Positions 15,913 through 23,366 of a DNA stretch of 64,000 bases are shown piece after piece. The stretch is taken from assembly GCA_021323655.1 (NCBI GenBank), contig JAJPKO010000065.1, positions 1 to 64,000 on the forward strand. The letters run 5' to 3'. A program made the translations under genes and the position numbers. The stretch comes from Acidobacteriaceae bacterium (lineage in GTDB: Bacteria > Acidobacteriota > Terriglobia > Terriglobales > Acidobacteriaceae). Every line of letters starts with the position of its first letter. The stretch's first letter is position 1. Under the pieces are notes generated by a model. The model saw only the letters and a program-made list of their open reading frames with translations, did not search any database and was not told the origin of the DNA.

Positions 15913-17349
15913 ATGAAAGATTTCGGGTTTTCTGGTTGTCGTATCTGGAGCATGGTCCTGCTGGCATTCGGTTTGTGCGTGACGGCGTATGCCGCCCCGT
16001 CTCAGGACCCTCGGCTGGAAGGCGCTTACACTTTTGAGCGCAGTGGGTGGACGTACATCCATCTTCAGGGAACTCCGGAGCAGATTGGATACCAGCACGG
16101 CTACCTGATGGCGGACAAGATTGAAGATGCGCTGCGGGTGTTCAAGCTGGAAGATGAGCACAGCACCGGGCGCAGCTGGACCTTCTTCCGCAACGCTGCA
16201 AAGACCATCCTATGGCCGCATATAGATCCTGAGTACCAGCAGGAGATGGCAACCATTGCAAAAGGCGCGCAGGCAAAGGGCGTGCATGTGGATGTGTGGG
16301 ACATTGTGGCGCTGAACGGCACGATGGAGCTGGCAGAATATTATGTTCCCTGGCTGGACAAGAAGCAGCATACGAAACATGCGCCGAAAGTGGATGCTCC
16401 TGGAAACTGCAGTGCCTTTATCGCTACCGGCAGCTATACGAAAGATGGCAAGATTGTGATTGCGCACAACAACTGGAGCTCCTATGCCGAAGGCGAGCGC
16501 TGGACGATGATCTTTGACATCCAGCCAGCGAAAGGACATCGCGTTCTGATGGACGGTGTTCCGGGAATGATCACCAGCAATGATGACTTTGGCATTAACG
16601 ATGCCGGAATCATGCTGACGGAAACGACGATTACGCAGTTTGAGGGCTGGAACTCCCATGGCAGCCCGACTTTCATGCGCTCGCGCAAGGCGCTGCAATA
16701 TGCCAACTCGATTGATGATGTGGTAGCTACGATGCGCAATGGCAACAATGGCGGATATGCGAACGACTGGCTGATTGGCGACCGCAAGACCGGAGAGATT
16801 GCGTATCTCGAACTCGGGTTGAAGAACACTCCGCTATGGCGGACGAAAGACGGCTACTTTGTGAGCTCAAACTTCGCGCGCGATCCGAAGCTCATCAAGG
16901 AAGAGACGGATGGCTTTGATTACAACGATCTCTCCACATCCCCAAATGCGCGGCGAGTGCGGTGGGAGCAGCTGATGTCCATCTATAAGGGCAAGATTGA
17001 CGCGGATGCGGCAGGGCGCTTTCTGAGCGACCACGAAGACAGCTTTACGAAGAAAGAAAATGCAGATCAGCGCAGCCTGTGCGGTCACGTGGACGCTGCA
17101 AAGGAAGGTATTCCGCAATGGGACTGGCCGCCGTATTACCCCGGAGGCGCTGTACAGGGCAAAGTGACGACGAGTGATCTGGCGGAGAAGATGAGCCTGA
17201 TTGCCCATGCCGGACACCCTTGCGGCGAAGACTTTCTGGCCAAGCCGTTTCTGGCAGCGCACCCGGAGTTTACATGGCAGGCACCGATCCTGCGCGACAT
17301 GAAGTCCGGGCCGTGGACCACCTTCACTGCCGGAGAAAAGGCGAACTAA
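15913..17349 (+). CDS. Secreted C45-type / phospholipase-B-like Ntn hydrolase
   Basis: A 478-residue exported hydrolase. The signal peptide spans about residues 1-28 (MVLLAFGLCVTAYAA). The likely N-terminal nucleophile after self-cleavage is C166 in the GNCSAFIA motif, followed by DGKIVIAHNNWS, which resembles the acyltransferase/phospholipase-B-like Ntn fold. Substrates of this family are amide-linked acyl groups; the exact one cannot be told. The ATG at 15913 directly precedes the signal peptide; upstream frame is not protein-like. Its TAA overlaps the stop codon of the convergent TauE gene. Confidence 0.82.
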   Translation: MKDFGFSGCRIWSMVLLAFGLCVTAYAAPSQDPRLEGAYTFERSGWTYIHLQGTPEQIGYQHGYLMADKIEDALRVFKLEDEHSTGRSWTFFRNAAKTILWPHIDPEYQQEMATIAKGAQAKGVHVDVWDIVALNGTMELAEYYVPWLDKKQHTKHAPKVDAPGNCSAFIATGSYTKDGKIVIAHNNWSSYAEGERWTMIFDIQPAKGHRVLMDGVPGMITSNDDFGINDAGIMLTETTITQFEGWNSHGSPTFMRSRKALQYANSIDDVVATMRNGNNGGYANDWLIGDRKTGEIAYLELGLKNTPLWRTKDGYFVSSNFARDPKLIKEETDGFDYNDLSTSPNARRVRWEQLMSIYKGKIDADAAGRFLSDHEDSFTKKENADQRSLCGHVDAAKEGIPQWDWPPYYPGGAVQGKVTTSDLAEKMSLIAHAGHPCGEDFLAKPFLAAHPEFTWQAPILRDMKSGPWTTFTAGEKAN

Positions 17350-18188
17350 CGACTTTGGGCATGCGAGGGTGAGAGCATGGCGTTCTGCACCGGGCTGGGA
17401 ACGGACACACGCTTTTCATGCTGCGAGGAGTCCGCAGCGGGCCGAACCGCCTGGTAACAGAACTGCAAGCCGATGAGGAGAAGCCACGCGGTCAATACCA
17501 GCCGCAAGGGACGGTGAGGAAGTCGAGGGGCGAGAATGGTGCCCGCAATTGCGCCCGCGACGCCTCCAATGAGCAGCTTCCAGAGCAGGGACATATCCGG
17601 AATGTGGGCGAGAAGGTGCAACCCACCGCCCAGGATGGAGAGACACATTCCAAAGGCTAGGTCTGTGCCTACCACTTCTGCGGCGCTGAGGTTGGTGAGG
17701 CCAAGCAGGGCGACGGTGCCGAGTGCACCTGCTCCGGAAGAAGAGAAGCCGAGCTCGGCACCGATGGGAAGCATAAGAAAGGCGAGCCATCTGCGGCGCT
17801 CCTTGCGCGGCCCGATCTCTTTTCTGGCGCGGAATGCTTTATAAAAATGTAGTGCGGAGGCGAAGACGATGATGCTGCCCAGAGCAAAGTACAACGGCGC
17901 CTGAAAGCCGTGCCCTACAACGTGACGGAAGACGAGCACGCCGACCAGGACGCCGGGAAGTCCGCCAATCAGCATCATGCCCAGGATTTTCCAGACGACC
18001 TGATTACGGATGATCTGCACCGGGACCACGATCAGCTTTACGACAGAGGCATAGACCAGCGCGGTGCCCACCGCTATGGGCAGCGGCACGTGCAGGAACA
18101 GCACCAGCGCCGGTGCCGTGACCGTGCCTGCCCCCACTCCCGTGATGGCGATGGCAAACGCGATGAGAAAGCCGAAGAGCAGTTCCAT
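17346..18188 (-). CDS. TauE/SafE family membrane permease
   Basis: A 280-residue inner-membrane protein with about eight hydrophobic segments. The N-terminal MELLFGFLIAFAIAITGVGAGTVTAPALVL and the internal repeat around LMLPIGAELGFSSSGAGALGTVALL match the TauE/SafE sulfite/organosulfur exporter family. The ATG at 18188 is chosen; the frame upstream to 18305 overlaps cysH. It begins 10 bp after cysH and is likely the last gene of the cys operon, so export of sulfite or another sulfur anion is the natural inference. Confidence 0.87.
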   Translation of the reverse strand: MELLFGFLIAFAIAITGVGAGTVTAPALVLFLHVPLPIAVGTALVYASVVKLIVVPVQIIRNQVVWKILGMMLIGGLPGVLVGVLVFRHVVGHGFQAPLYFALGSIIVFASALHFYKAFRARKEIGPRKERRRWLAFLMLPIGAELGFSSSGAGALGTVALLGLTNLSAAEVVGTDLAFGMCLSILGGGLHLLAHIPDMSLLWKLLIGGVAGAIAGTILAPRLPHRPLRLVLTAWLLLIGLQFCYQAVRPAADSSQHEKRVSVPSPVQNAMLSPSHAQSR

Positions 18189-18198
18189 GCCGTTCCTT

Positions 18199-18882
18199 TT
18201 ATCGGGCCTGAATGTGGATGCCGCACTCGGTTTTGCGTCCGGCCCAGCGGCCTGAACGCGGATCATTGGGGTCGAGAGGAAGGCTGGTACATGGCTCGCA
18301 ACCAATGCTGGAGTAACCCTTGTCGTAGAGCGGGAGCAGCGGAATGCCGTGCTGCTGCGCGTAATACCAGACGTCGCGGGTGGTCCAGTCGGCGAGCGGG
18401 CTGAGCTTGACCAGTTCGTGACCGCTGGGAAGCTTAAAATGGTCTACGGCCTGCATGTTCGCGCGGGTTTTGGCCTGCTCACGGCGCATTCCGGTGAACC
18501 ATGTTTTGTAATTTTCGAGCGCGGAAAACAGCGGGCCGACTTTGCGCAGCTTGCAGCACTGGTCTGGCGCGGTCTGGTACAGGATGCCGAACTGCGATTC
18601 CTGCTGGGCGACGGTCTGCTCCGGCAGAAGATTGATGAGGTTGAGTTTCCATGCCGAGGCCATCTGGTCGCGATAAGTGTAGGTTTCAGCAAAGTGGTAT
18701 CCGGTGTCGAGAAAGAGTACAGGAACGTCGGGATAAATGGCACGGACCATGTGGAGCACGGCCATGTCCTCTGCCTGAAAGCTGCACGTGACGCATTCTG
18801 TAACGGATCGGGTTACGTGTGCTGTGACGAGCTCCTGCGCGGACTGGACTTTTTCTGAAAGGCCAGGGATTTCAAAACTCAT
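18199..18882 (-). CDS. cysH: Adenylyl-sulfate (APS) reductase
   Basis: Reduces activated sulfate to sulfite using thioredoxin. The paired cysteines C109-C110 and C195/C198 (IGCEPC) are the [4Fe-4S] ligands that mark the APS-reducing type, as opposed to the clusterless PAPS reductases. The catalytic Cys is C220 in GRKTECGIH. At 227 residues it has family length. It overlaps cysN by 11 bp. An APS-type enzyme needs no APS kinase, consistent with the lack of a functional cysC here. Confidence 0.94.
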   Translation of the reverse strand: MSFEIPGLSEKVQSAQELVTAHVTRSVTECVTCSFQAEDMAVLHMVRAIYPDVPVLFLDTGYHFAETYTYRDQMASAWKLNLINLLPEQTVAQQESQFGILYQTAPDQCCKLRKVGPLFSALENYKTWFTGMRREQAKTRANMQAVDHFKLPSGHELVKLSPLADWTTRDVWYYAQQHGIPLLPLYDKGYSSIGCEPCTSLPLDPNDPRSGRWAGRKTECGIHIQAR

Positions 18883-20503
18883 TTTCCAACTCCCGCAAGA
18901 GGGCGTCAGCCTGCGCCTTTAATCCATCATGCCGGGCGACTGGCCGCCGCAGCAGTTCATGCGCGTCCGGCGCCAGGGTGATGATTTCTGCCTGCGCCTG
19001 CGATTTGGATGGCACAAGCACGGTGAAACCTGCGTATAGCAGTGATTGCCATACTTCGGGCTTCTGGCTGGAGGTGATGACTACGTCCTTGCCGCGTGTT
19101 GTGAGCTTTTCTTCAAGCACGCTGACCAGCACTTCGCCAGGAAGCAGCAGGAGCGTGCCGTTGATCTGCGAGCGGCCGTCCTTGTCCAGCTTTGTGTAGT
19201 GCACCATGCCTGCGCCGACGGTGGCGTTGCTTGCCGGATCAATGAGAATGAAGCTGCCGGTCACGCGGTTTTCACGATAGGGGTCGAGCATCAGCGAACG
19301 GCTTGTTCTGACTTCGACTTCGCCGATTTCATTCAGGCGAAGCACCGCAGACTGCTGCGGCTCGAGCGTTTCAATGTCGAGCCGGTGGGCAACGCGCAGA
19401 TGCGCCTTTACCGTCTGCGCTGTGTGTTTGAGGAGGTAGGTCTTGCCGGGAACAAATGGTCCGGCGTGCAGCCAGACGAGTGAGGCGGAGAAGCTGTTTG
19501 ATACCGCAGGCGCGTCGTCCACATGCGCGATAAGGTCGCCGCGGCTGATGTCAATTTCGTCTTCGAGCGTGACGGCGACGGACTGCGGTGCAAAAGCGGA
19601 GTCGAGGTCGCCGTCGAAGGTATGGATGCCCTTGATGCGGCTTGTGCGTCCGGAAGGCAGAGCGATGATTCTGTCGCCAGGTGTTACCGTTCCGGAAGCG
19701 ATCTGACCGGCGAAGCCGCGGAAATCCTGATTGGGGCGAATGACGCGCTGCACTGGAAGACGAAAAGCGGCGTCGGGAAGGTCCTCGGCAATGGGGACAC
19801 TTTCCAGGTGCTCGAGGAGAGTAGGCCCGTCATACCAGGGTGTCTGCTCGCTACGGGTCACGACGTTGTCGCCAAGTAGCGCGCTGATGGGTATGGCTGT
19901 CAGTTCGCGAATGCCAAGCTTTGCTGCAAGCCCATGCAGATCGTTATGGAGCGTGCGATAGACCTTTTCTGAAAAATCCACGAGGTCCATTTTGTTGATG
20001 GCTGCAACGACGTGCCGAATTCCCAGAAGCGAAGCGATGAACCCGTGGCGGCGCGACTGGGTGAGAATGCCTTTGCGCGCATCTACAAGAACAATGGCCA
20101 GGTCCGCGGTGGAAGCGCCTGTGACCATGTTGCGCGTGTACTGTTCGTGGCCGGGAGTGTCGGCAATGATGAACTTGCGCTTCGGCGTGGCGAAGAAGCG
20201 GTAGGCCACATCAATGGTAATGCCTTGCTCGCGTTCGGCGCGAAGGCCATCGGTCAGGAGCGCGAAGTCAATGGCGGAAGCCTCGCCGGAGCTGCTACGC
20301 GTGACGGTCTTCACCTGGTCTTCGTAAACGCTGCGCGAGTCATACAGCAGACGGCCAATGAGCGTGGACTTGCCGTCATCCACACTGCCCGCAGTGGTGA
20401 AGCACAGAAGGTCCTTCTGCTGCTCGGCGGCGAGAAACTCTTCGATTGTGAACGGCGTGGTGCCCTCGTTCAGGTCATCCAGCACATTCGATAAGACGGC
20501 CAT
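18872..20503 (-). CDS. cysN: Sulfate adenylyltransferase GTPase subunit CysN with extra C-terminal domain
   Basis: GTPase subunit of ATP sulfurylase, coupling GTP hydrolysis to APS formation with CysD. The P-loop GSVDDGKST is at about residue 39, DTPGHEQYT and NKMD follow, and the EF-Tu-like beta barrels lie beyond about residue 240. It has 543 residues, longer than a plain CysN (about 475) but far shorter than CysNC fusions. The last about 99 residues (from about 445) have a helix-strand layout that recalls an APS kinase without its P-loop. The start overlaps the cysD stop (TGATG). Confidence 0.94.
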   Translation of the reverse strand: MAVLSNVLDDLNEGTTPFTIEEFLAAEQQKDLLCFTTAGSVDDGKSTLIGRLLYDSRSVYEDQVKTVTRSSSGEASAIDFALLTDGLRAEREQGITIDVAYRFFATPKRKFIIADTPGHEQYTRNMVTGASTADLAIVLVDARKGILTQSRRHGFIASLLGIRHVVAAINKMDLVDFSEKVYRTLHNDLHGLAAKLGIRELTAIPISALLGDNVVTRSEQTPWYDGPTLLEHLESVPIAEDLPDAAFRLPVQRVIRPNQDFRGFAGQIASGTVTPGDRIIALPSGRTSRIKGIHTFDGDLDSAFAPQSVAVTLEDEIDISRGDLIAHVDDAPAVSNSFSASLVWLHAGPFVPGKTYLLKHTAQTVKAHLRVAHRLDIETLEPQQSAVLRLNEIGEVEVRTSRSLMLDPYRENRVTGSFILIDPASNATVGAGMVHYTKLDKDGRSQINGTLLLLPGEVLVSVLEEKLTTRGKDVVITSSQKPEVWQSLLYAGFTVLVPSKSQAQAEIITLAPDAHELLRRPVARHDGLKAQADALLRELENEF

Positions 20504-21447
20504 CAGAAATACCCCTCGCGCTTCTTGATTTCCATTGAGCCGTCCTGGTCGTGGTCAATGATGCGGTTTGCGCGTTCAGATGAGCGGAAGGAAATCAGCT
20601 CAGCGATGATCTTTGGCACGGTGTCCGCATCGGAGCGGATGGCACCGGTGCATGGGCTGCATCCTAGGGAGCGAAGGCGACAGCGTACCCACTGCTCTTC
20701 TCCTGGCAGTCCTTTCACGAATGGCTGCTCAATGGGGATGAGGCTGTCTCCGCGTACCAGCATGCGGCGCTCCTGCGCAAAATAGAGCGGAATGATGGGG
20801 ATGTTTTCCAGATGGATGTAGTGCCAGATGTCGAGCTCGGTCCAGTTAGAAAGCGGAAAGACGCGGATGCTTTCGCCGGGACCGATGCGGCCATTGTAGA
20901 GGTTCCACAGCTCAGGACGCTGGTTTTTGGGGTCCCACTGACCGTTTGCATCACGGAAGGAGAAGATGCGCTCCTTTGCGCGCGAGCGCTCTTCGTCGCG
21001 GCGCGCTCCTCCAAAGGCGGCGTCAAAGCCGTGCGCACGGAGGCCATCGAGAAGGGCCTGGGTCTTTAAATAGCCGCAGCATCGTTGGGTGCCGAGCGTA
21101 ATGGGGTTCGCGCCATTGGCGATTGCCTCTTCATTGCGCCAGACCAGAAGATTCAGCCCCAGTTCGCGCGTGTAGTTGTCGCGGAACTCGATCATCTCGC
21201 GGAATTTGTAGCCGGTATCAATGTGCAGCAGCGGAAACGGAATCGTTCCGGGGTAGAAGGCCTTCTGTGCAAGGCGCAGCATCACCGAGGAGTCCTTGCC
21301 GATGGAATAGAGCATGACAGGCCTCTGGAACTCGGCCGCGACTTCGCGGATAATGTGGATGCTTTCGGCCTCAAGTGCTTTTAAGTGCGTGAGGCGAGCG
21401 CGGCTTGCAGTGATGGTCTCCGGCGAATCGTAGACTGCTGTGGACAT
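20503..21447 (-). CDS. cysD: Sulfate adenylyltransferase subunit CysD
   Basis: PP-loop catalytic subunit of ATP sulfurylase, making APS from ATP and sulfate together with CysN. The SIGKDSSV pyrophosphatase loop lies near residue 48, and the [10 protein letters not shown] and [18 protein letters not shown] segments are diagnostic. It has 314 residues from ATG 21447; the frame upstream lacks similarity. It is the first enzyme gene of cysD-cysN-cysH-TauE. A Cys-rich leader ORF and terminator-like hairpin lie just upstream. Confidence 0.95.
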
Positions 21448-21485
21448 GGTGCTAAATTTCCTGTTGTGTGGAATAAAGAGGCGGG

Positions 21486-21524
21486 AAAACAGAAAACCCG
21501 CGCTCAAGGTATCTGGCTGCGGGT
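21486..21524 (-). terminator. Terminator-like hairpin in the cysD leader (candidate attenuator)
   Basis: On the minus strand ACCCGC (21524-21519) pairs with GCGGGT (21501-21496), followed by TTTTCTGTTTT-type U-rich sequence (21499-21486). The same GCGGG can instead pair with CCCGC (21485-21481). The two pairings exclude each other. It lies between the leader ORF and cysD. Confidence 0.5.
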
Positions 21525-21566
21525 CTGGTGTTACTTATGCTGGTTTTTCAGAAGAACCTGAGGATT

Positions 21567-21662
21567 CTACTTACAGCGTCCACACCCTTGCCGAGATGCG
21601 CTGGTGCTGCAACAACAGCGACAGTCCATTCGACAAGCAAGGGTACAGGGCGCAAAAACCAT
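21567..21662 (-). CDS. Cysteine-rich leader peptide of the cys operon
   Basis: A very short ORF reading into the cysD leader. From ATG 21662 it has 31 codons; an internal ATG at 21629 gives 20 codons, MDCRCCCSTSASRQGCGRCK. The 20-codon form has six Cys, including three in a row, in a proteome where Cys is rare. It stops 119 bp before cysD and upstream of a terminator-like hairpin. Cys-codon leader ORFs that sense cysteine supply are known upstream of sulfur genes in mycobacteria. No strong ribosome-binding site is seen, and it may be read from a near-leaderless transcript. Function is inferred from composition and place. Confidence 0.55.
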   Translation of the reverse strand: MVFAPCTLACRMDCRCCCSTSASRQGCGRCK

Positions 21663-21672
21663 GTGTTAACAA

Positions 21673-21701
21673 GAATCTCGCAGAAGAACGGCTATTGTCA
21701 A
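21673..21701 (-). promoter_or_regulatory. Candidate promoter of the cys operon
   Basis: On the minus strand a perfect TTGACA (21701-21696) is followed after 17 bp by AGATTC (21678-21673), a weak -10. Transcription would start just before the ATG at 21662. Confidence 0.4.
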
Positions 21702-21775
21702 ACGGACCGGTTGGGTCTTCCGAGAGAGAATCCCTGAATTTCTCATAAATTGCCGCCATCTGGTTCGAACCAACT

Positions 21776-21805
21776 GAAAAATTGCCGCTACAAGAAAATG
21801 CGGCT
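21776..21805 (-). terminator. Terminator of the gcv operon
   Basis: On the minus strand GCCGC-(11 nt)-GCGGC (21804-21784) is followed by AATTTTTC. It lies about 50 bp after the gcvPB stop and separates gcv from the cys promoter. Confidence 0.6.
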
Positions 21806-21851
21806 CTCAAGGCAAAGGGACGCGATCCAGAAGGAACGCATGCAACGAATG

Positions 21852-23366
21852 TTACTCGGCGGAAGGCTTCCAGCGCAGAACAGGCTTGCGGGCTGCGGTC
21901 GTTTCGTCGAGGCGCGACACGCGGGTGGAATGCGGCGCATTCAGAACAAGTTGCGGGTTTTCTTCCGCTTCGCGGGCGATCTGCCGCATTGCATCCACGA
22001 AAAGGTCGAGCTCTTCGCGCGACTCGCTCTCCGTCGGCTCGATCATGAGCGCGCCTGGCACAATCAGCGGGAATGAGACTGTATAAGGATGAAAGCCGTA
22101 GTCAATGAGCCGCTTGGCGATATCTCCGGTTTTGACGCCGTTCTTTAACTGCTTGCGGTCGCTGAAGACAACTTCGTGCATAGAAGGTGTCTTGTACGGC
22201 AATTCGTAGACGTCCTCCAGCTTTTTGCGGATGTAATTCGCATTCAGGACGGCGTCTTCCGTGGTCTGGCGCAGGCCGTCCGGTCCATTGGCCAGCGTAT
22301 ATGCAAGAGCGCGCACAAACATGCCGAAGTTGCCATAGAAGGCGCGCACTCGTCCAACGGATTCAGGACGGTCATAGTTCCAGTGAAGCTGACCATCGCT
22401 TCCCTGCTCCACGACCGGTACGGGCAGAAATGGCTCAAGAATCTTTTTGCAGGCCACAGGGCCGGAGCCGGGGCCACCGCCTCCATGCGGCGTGGAGAAG
22501 GTCTTGTGCAGGTTCAGGTGCATAACGTCCACACCAAAATCACCGGGGCGGGTCTTGCCGCAGAGCGCGTTCATGTTGGCGCCATCCATGTAAAGCAAAG
22601 CGCCCTTTGCGTGAAGGATGTCAGCAATCCGGTGAATCTCATTTTCAAAGACACCGAGCGTGGAAGGATTGGTGAGCATGAGCGCGGCGGTGTCTTCGTT
22701 GACCATCTGCTCCAGCGCGGCAACGTCAATGCCACCCTGCGCGTTCGATTTAATGTTCACCACCTGATAGCCGCAGACCGCGGCAGTCGCCGGATTCGTT
22801 CCGTGCGCGGAATCAGGAATAAGAATGTTCTTGCGCGTATTTCCCTTAGAGCGGTGATAGGCGCGTATCAGCAAAATCCCTGTAAATTCGCCATGTGCTC
22901 CGGCGGCGGGCTGGAGCGTGATTGCATCCATGCCGGTGATTTCGATCAGGCAGTCCTGCAACAGCTTGATGATCTGCAGGGAGCCTTGTGAGAGAGATTC
23001 CGGCTGATAAGGATGGGCTTCGGCGATTCCTTCAAGGCGTGAAACAAACTCATTCACGCGCGGATTGTACTTCATGGTGCAGCTGCCCAGCGGATACATG
23101 CCGAGATCAATGGCGTAGTTCCAGGTGGAAAGCCGGGTGAAGTGGCGGATGATTTCGATCTCGCTCAGCTCAGGCAGAGTGCCTGTGTTCTCACGGGCCG
23201 CCTCGCCGAGGACCTGTGCCGGGTCCACTTGGGGCACGTCGAGCGATGGCAACTTGTATGCCTTCTTGCCCGGCGAAGAGAGTTCAAAGGAGAGCTTTTC
23301 ATTCTGCGTAAGGTGCGATGTGACCTTGCGCGGCGTTCCAACGAATGCTTGTTCTGCTGTTGCCAT
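21852..23366 (-). CDS. gcvPB: Glycine dehydrogenase (decarboxylating) subunit 2
   Basis: C-terminal-type half of the split P-protein of the glycine cleavage system; with GcvPA it decarboxylates glycine and loads the aminomethyl group on GcvH. The PLP lysine is K288 in NLHKTFSTPHGGGGPGSG, and the DSAHGTNPAT and PAAGAHGEFTG motifs are present. It has 504 residues, normal for the split form. It follows gcvPA by 21 bp and closes the operon. Confidence 0.95.
   Translation of the reverse strand: MATAEQAFVGTPRKVTSHLTQNEKLSFELSSPGKKAYKLPSLDVPQVDPAQVLGEAARENTGTLPELSEIEIIRHFTRLSTWNYAIDLGMYPLGSCTMKYNPRVNEFVSRLEGIAEAHPYQPESLSQGSLQIIKLLQDCLIEITGMDAITLQPAAGAHGEFTGILLIRAYHRSKGNTRKNILIPDSAHGTNPATAAVCGYQVVNIKSNAQGGIDVAALEQMVNEDTAALMLTNPSTLGVFENEIHRIADILHAKGALLYMDGANMNALCGKTRPGDFGVDVMHLNLHKTFSTPHGGGGPGSGPVACKKILEPFLPVPVVEQGSDGQLHWNYDRPESVGRVRAFYGNFGMFVRALAYTLANGPDGLRQTTEDAVLNANYIRKKLEDVYELPYKTPSMHEVVFSDRKQLKNGVKTGDIAKRLIDYGFHPYTVSFPLIVPGALMIEPTESESREELDLFVDAMRQIAREAEENPQLVLNAPHSTRVSRLDETTAARKPVLRWKPSAE

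Follow-up and report, generated by a model that had tools for sequence, protein, structure and literature searches.

A probable ribosome-mediated cysteine attenuator ahead of the cysDNH genes of an Acidobacteriaceae bacterium

The cysDNH genes of an Acidobacteriaceae bacterium are preceded by a short cysteine-codon leader whose RNA offers two competing structures, a terminator-like hairpin and an alternative helix, and we consider it very probable that this leader is a cysteine-responsive, ribosome-mediated transcription attenuator of trp-like design that senses Cys-tRNA. The region lies in a stretch of 64,000 nucleotides (the whole of the DNA analysed, hereafter the window). A preliminary description of the same DNA had proposed that stalling at Cys codons allows read-through into cysD, and this proposal gains support from a Cys run and a hairpin that recur among relatives and from a predicted promoter upstream. 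Sequence and computation supply the parts, their repetition in related loci, their mutually exclusive pairing and their co-variation; from these we infer that the leader is translated, that ribosomes stall on it, that transcription terminates ahead of cysD and that the outcome responds to cysteine. The attenuator is best read as a member of a small sulfur/thiol regulon, of which this genome has three units or more.

The leader, its promoter and hairpins, and the cysDNH genes all lie on the minus strand. The cysD gene (sulfate adenylyltransferase small subunit, 20506–21447, its ATG beginning at 21447) is followed by cysN (large subunit, 18872–20503) and then by a cysH-type (P)APS reductase gene (18199–18882), as judged from the list of open reading frames and family matches; a possible ribosome-binding site for cysD (AGGAAA, 13 nt ahead of the ATG) was found by eye. 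CysN is 543 residues long, and the family matches listed for it stop near residue 440, leaving a C-terminal segment of ~100 residues that has no family match and could not accommodate an APS kinase domain. A TauE/SafE permease ORF (17346–18305) comes after cysH; its true start probably lies later than the one listed, because the latter falls 107 nt inside cysH and the Pfam match does not set in until residue 42.

The leader ORF (21567–21662; ATG 21662–21660, stop codon TAG 21569–21567) comprises 31 codons, eight of them for Cys (MVFAPCTLACRMDCRCCCSTSASRQGCGRCK), with the codons for C-R-C-C-C at 21623–21609. A shorter version of 20 codons, starting from 21629, would still contain six Cys; we favour the 31-codon version because 9 nt separate the predicted −10 box from its ATG. 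Within the 400 nt before cysD, the Cys cluster was matched in only 3 of 5000 dinucleotide shuffles, and the window thus has one of the expected marks of a trp-type attenuator, a leader ORF of few codons in which those for the end product form a run. The Cys-rich ORF, the TTGACA box and the U-tailed stem all read in the sequence as the preliminary description had them, and the 79-residue ORF that it dismissed as a shadow (21571–21810) is indeed in another frame.

Recurrence of the leader was assessed at cysD loci from two sources: 61 genomes, 24 of which gave a match (26 loci used, including the window and excluding the partial locus L028), and contigs of named genomes, from which the best 80 of 237 were taken. 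These 106 loci became 103 after duplicates (L037, L082 and L107) were dropped. With a leader defined as a start-to-stop ORF within 400 nt upstream containing at least four Cys in ten residues, 55 of the 103 loci carry one, compared with 39 of 2060 shuffles, 4 of 103 antisense strands and 1 of 70 stretches further upstream; Cys is also the most enriched residue (55/103 loci versus 21/1030 shuffles). The peptides include a group near that of the window (ACRMxCxCCC...RRGCEHCR), a second group (MSLCxTPxCCACCCxPRRxxG), in whose Cys block third codon positions account for 14 of the 18 differences from the majority, and a third (CACCCC...VPALSVxxxG). Cultured bacteria with the leader include Acidipila rosea DSM 103428 (L053) and Granulicella sp. 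dw_53 (L057). The preliminary description had treated loss of the Cys codons or the hairpin in close relatives as fatal to its proposal; both recur, with the reservation that not every Cys is kept, since a locus of the same genus (L003) retains CRMDCRCC and has lost the C-terminal Cys codons. Four of the records (L068, L085, L097 and L107) are titled Rhodanobacteraceae, Acidimicrobiia, Verrucomicrobia and Bordetella, and encode CysD proteins 73–81% identical to that of the window; these assemblies are probably mislabelled, and L107 duplicates a genome of the same class (L012).

Several Cys within so short a peptide might also point to a translated product that has a role of its own, in metal or redox binding, and whose ORF precedes a terminator by chance. 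We regard this as very unlikely, in that the groups share little besides Cys, the Cys runs and the RNA pairing persist across them, and none of the four leader peptides tried matched an NCBIfam family.

Upstream of the leader, a predicted promoter (21672–21701; sigma-70-like score of 9.3) is made up of TTGACA (21701–21696), an 18-nt gap and the weak −10 box GATTCT (21677–21672). A strict consensus scan of 21400–21860 listed neither a promoter nor a terminator. Of the 46 leader loci, 42 have a sigma-70-like site scoring at least 7, compared with 54 of 460 shuffles, and at 40 of the 46 the −10 box ends 5–10 nt ahead of the first ATG or GTG in the leader frame. Such spacing suggests that the leader is probably leaderless, with transcription expected to start at its ATG or a few nucleotides before it. 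The predicted promoter hence stands upstream of the ORF, rather than downstream, where a transcription start would have been incompatible with the original proposal.

A leaderless Cys-run ORF, predicted here from promoter position alone, is a feature of the mycobacterial polycysteine small ORFs, and the likeness raises the alternative that leader stalling changes the translation of cysD and not the termination of transcription. We judge this improbable: 119 nt separate the leader stop codon from the cysD ATG and contain a terminator-like hairpin, a hairpin of this kind is present in 46 of 55 relatives, and its 5′ arm co-varies with the leader. The mycobacterial type is defined by translational control without conserved terminator hairpins, a description from which the terminator-like hairpin present here departs.

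The hairpin and its U-rich tail (21486–21526) comprise an interrupted stem at 21526–21494 and the tail TTTTCTGTTTT at 21496–21486; its position corresponds to that of the intrinsic terminator that precedes the first structural gene in trp-type attenuators, although the strict scan of the window was negative. In the stretch separating leader from cysD, 46 of the 55 leader-bearing loci have a U-tailed hairpin (−8 kcal/mol or better), versus 51 of 275 shuffles, and the same search at −10 kcal/mol returned 43 leader loci versus 36 shuffles. The stem cores vary among groups with pairing kept (ACCCGC/GCGGGU, GCCCAC/GUGGGC, GCCCGCG/CGCGGGC and GCCCGGG/CCCGGGC); in two narrow alignments, two-sided changes in the terminator were seen at two pairs and at none.

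The 5′ arm of the terminator (strand 3, ACCCGCAGCCAGAU, 21511–21524) also serves as the 3′ strand of an antiterminator, making the two structures mutually exclusive. In the folded window this helix joins 21597–21584 of the leader ORF with 21524–21511; its 5′ strand (strand 2, AUCUCGGCAAGGGUG, 21583–21597) is located just past the Cys run, inside the leader ORF, and has as its partner either strand 3 or strand 1 (UACCCUUGC, 21637–21645), the latter pairing in ribosome-free RNA to give a hairpin around the Cys codons. At 44 of 46 loci the upstream partner of the 5′ arm lies 15–60 nt downstream of the first Cys codon without passing the stop. Strands 2 and 3 co-vary: native pairs average −22.7 kcal/mol against −17.5 kcal/mol when partners are swapped, a difference equalled in 0 of 20,000 permutations, and among unrelated partners the median fraction that pairs as well is 0.09. 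Co-variation extends to strands 1 and 2 (0/20,000 permutations) and is weaker in unrelated pairs, where 30 of 46 do better than half. Within the two narrow alignments, 83% and 71% of antiterminator cells are paired (23–37% and 36–48% when slid); two-sided antiterminator changes are few (four and six pairs), and were reached by 62/500 and 120/500 shuffles.

A different competing pairing, between GCGGG (21501–21497, in the terminator 3′ arm) and CCCGC (21485–21481), had been put forward in the preliminary description. The window does permit it; as an antiterminator we reject it. The downstream partner lies beyond the U tract, and the pairing could therefore form only once RNA polymerase has passed the terminator, while in relatives re-pairing of the terminator 3′ arm with downstream sequence is at chance level (20/46 loci, 401/920 shuffles). 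On folding, leader sequence 21597–21584 with the terminator 5′ arm appears the better antiterminator. Comparison with relatives has thus upheld the Cys run and the U-tailed hairpin and discounted the second pairing, a different antiterminator being the one that co-varies. The sequence CCCGCC after the U tract (window 21481–21485) is kept in four of the six closest loci (window, L003, L032 and L035); the 40 remaining leader loci with a terminator all lack it, which makes 4 of 46 in all.

We modelled the influence of ribosome position by folding only the RNA exposed downstream of the ribosome, stopping short of the terminator 3′ arm, for the 45 leader loci with room after the stop codon, using shuffled leaders as a control. 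A ribosome placed on the first Cys of the run leaves the 5′ arm paired upstream at a mean probability of 0.76 (shuffled leader, 0.56), and for one placed on the stop codon the value is 0.34 (shuffled leader, 0.46); all 45 loci exceed their own shuffle mean in the stalled state and 36 are below it at the stop. Over the locus set, then, the antiterminator that excludes the terminator is predicted to be blocked by a ribosome at the stop codon, as the trp-type model demands. The window gives 0.62 stalled and 0.16 at the stop, and since the 5′ arm is sequestered equally in 4 of 20 cases when that leader is shuffled, the window by itself is weak evidence; one relative with a leader (L009) exhibits no effect of ribosome position (0.69 and 0.71). 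In the window without a ribosome, the 1:2 hairpin forms with a probability of 0.96 and the terminator with 1.00, matching the expectation that a 1:2 hairpin favours termination when the leader is untranslated.

Equilibrium folding of the complete RNA gives a different picture, with the terminator dominant even in the stalled state (mean of 0.74, versus 0.93 at the stop; 46 loci). In 13 loci stalling costs the terminator more than 0.1, and in none does it gain as much. For the window the stalled value is 0.61–0.74, according to which pairs are included, and that at the stop 0.93–1.00. Equilibrium folding was accordingly rejected as a proof of switching, there being no switch in most loci, nor in the Escherichia coli trp leader, which, handled identically, yields 0.62 and 0.05 for 5′-arm pairing and 0.94 and 0.96 at equilibrium. 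A known attenuator therefore looks this way by such folding, and any switch must be kinetic.

The mechanism that we envisage would begin with transcription starting no more than a few nucleotides from the leader AUG (as the promoter position suggests) and loading of a ribosome onto the 5′ end without a Shine–Dalgarno sequence. Given ample Cys-tRNA, the ribosome would reach the stop codon, and strand 2, in the last part of that ORF, would be either covered or paired with strand 1; strand 3, thus freed, would pair with strand 4, and the polymerase would terminate ahead of cysD. When Cys-tRNA is scarce, the ribosome would stall at the C-R-C-C-C codons, leaving strand 2 free to take strand 3 before strand 4 exists, and formation of this 2:3 helix would let the polymerase continue into cysDNH.

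Structure in the 5′ region might equally have belonged to a riboswitch or T-box responding to a sulfur metabolite, with the ORF incidental; the region is indeed structured (z of −2.1, with 5 of 200 shuffles folding equally well). We find this scarcely credible, given that Rfam returned no match to a known family, either for the window at gathering scores or for 21400–21860 at E up to 1, and that the recurring element is a run of Cys codons.

Further units of the same kind were sought in the host genome using the codon patterns C-x-CCC and CC-x-CC (88 and 79 places). A filter for a hairpin (−10 or better) plus a T-rich stretch within 130 nt retained ten short ORFs, of which seven are inside longer ORFs, leaving three, the cysD leader included. 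Because only two codon patterns were scanned, three units is a lower bound. The second leader (MSRSHSIPAICCACCCASAGLVNE, with a terminator; contig C17, 218690–218758, minus strand; L137) precedes a nitrite/sulfite-reductase-family gene, whose product has a Pfam NIR_SIR match, falls below every NCBIfam cut-off, and may reduce sulfite rather than nitrite. An mnmA-like thiouridylase ORF (identified by eye) lies upstream of it on the opposite strand. The third (MERLAPTCMCLCCCCCCCCTVRVCS, with eight consecutive Cys codons; contig C3, ~151280–151370, plus strand; L117) precedes a 1-Cys peroxiredoxin gene and is overlapped by a 178-residue antisense ORF; peroxide defence may be governed by cysteine supply.

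Orthologues of both genes carry similar leaders. For the reductase, 21 of 29 loci (leaving out L223, which has too little upstream sequence) possess a Cys leader, 14 of them with a terminator, compared with 34 of 1500 shuffles (L223 included). For the peroxiredoxin, a leader is found in 10 of the 23 loci given (30 fetched), all ten with a terminator, compared with 13 of 1150 shuffles; by identity, these ten are among the 13 loci at 71% or above, and none is among the ten below. In the stalling model, 14/14 reductase loci and 9/10 peroxiredoxin loci lie above their shuffle means. Such recurrence, both at cysD (55 of 103 loci) and ahead of two further sulfur/thiol genes, leaves a chance cluster of Cys codons beside an ordinary terminator highly improbable, although the strict scans without promoter or terminator, and a window antiterminator not beyond its own shuffles (4/20), are what such a coincidence would produce.

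Within the 400 nt upstream, 48 of the 103 cysD loci lack an adjacent leader. Five of these 48 carry one further upstream, at the head of the cluster: before a tetrapyrrole methylase gene (L010), a TauE permease gene (L085), an outer-membrane barrel gene (L094), a transporter-type cluster whose first gene is, by eye, substrate-binding-protein-like (G032, L006), and the reductase of a reductase–methylase–cysD cluster (G035, L005), the last two being located in additional stretches retrieved for this comparison. No leader was found at all at 43 loci, several of which have little upstream sequence. A leader profile (A1), searched against the host genome and 297 genomes of the phylum, matched only the host genome's two leaders, which themselves form part of the profile. 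Such a search lacks sensitivity, since G031 and G034 gave no match yet have leaders by direct scan, and it is therefore uninformative on distribution.

The closest functional parallel is the E. coli trp leader, which shares the run of regulatory codons, the exclusive strands 1-2-3-4, the terminator before the structural genes and similar values in our models; here, in contrast, cysteine would be sensed and the leader is probably leaderless. The setting also differs from that of trp-type attenuators, being an acidobacterial one before sulfate-assimilation, sulfite/nitrite-reductase-family and peroxiredoxin genes. The mycobacterial polycysteine leaderless small ORFs (Canestrari 2020; Shell 2015; Smith 2022) have in common with our leader a Cys-codon run in a short leaderless ORF before sulfur genes, and differ in that a terminator and antiterminator are predicted here; in Mycobacterium smegmatis it is translation of the downstream genes that is described as regulated (PMC9031893). 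For mycobacterial cys operons, Seliverstov 2005 (PMC1262725) reports that conserved upstream terminator hairpins were not found, leaves the mode of cys leader regulation open and suggests Rho-dependent termination as a possibility. The cys leaders of Mycobacterium and Propionibacterium acnes and the cbs leader of Bifidobacterium longum, as presented in the same work, resemble ours in their cysteine runs near the stop of a short ORF, and unlike it are without attenuator hairpins.

Transcription attenuation by leader peptides outside Proteobacteria is described for M. tuberculosis ilvB1NC (PMC13236596) and Corynebacterium ilvBNC (PMC11857589), where, unlike here, the signals are branched-chain amino acids and the hosts Actinobacteria. 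The cysteine leader ORFs located in the open-access literature searched were actinobacterial (PMC1262725, PMC4633059, PMC9094748, PMC9031893 and PMC13236596); as most subscription papers fall outside that literature, absence of an earlier report is unproven. Leader genes have been counted in Acidobacteria (PMC4833913), in a text that contains no match for 'cys'.

We tentatively suggest that the Acidobacteriaceae use a dispersed cysteine-attenuation regulon, in which leaderless Cys leaders and intrinsic terminators might couple the charging of Cys-tRNA to sulfate activation, a sulfite/nitrite-reductase-family enzyme, uptake or siroheme-type genes where they stand at cluster heads, and a 1-Cys peroxiredoxin; oxidative loss of free cysteine would then itself switch on peroxide defence together with cysteine synthesis, and might do so with no dedicated cysteine repressor. 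If the attenuator reading is true, Acidobacteriota would possess a cysteine attenuator of the full classical kind, terminator and antiterminator included, repeated before several operons, which would provide a testable account of how such soil bacteria tune sulfate assimilation and would link their cysteine supply to peroxide defence.
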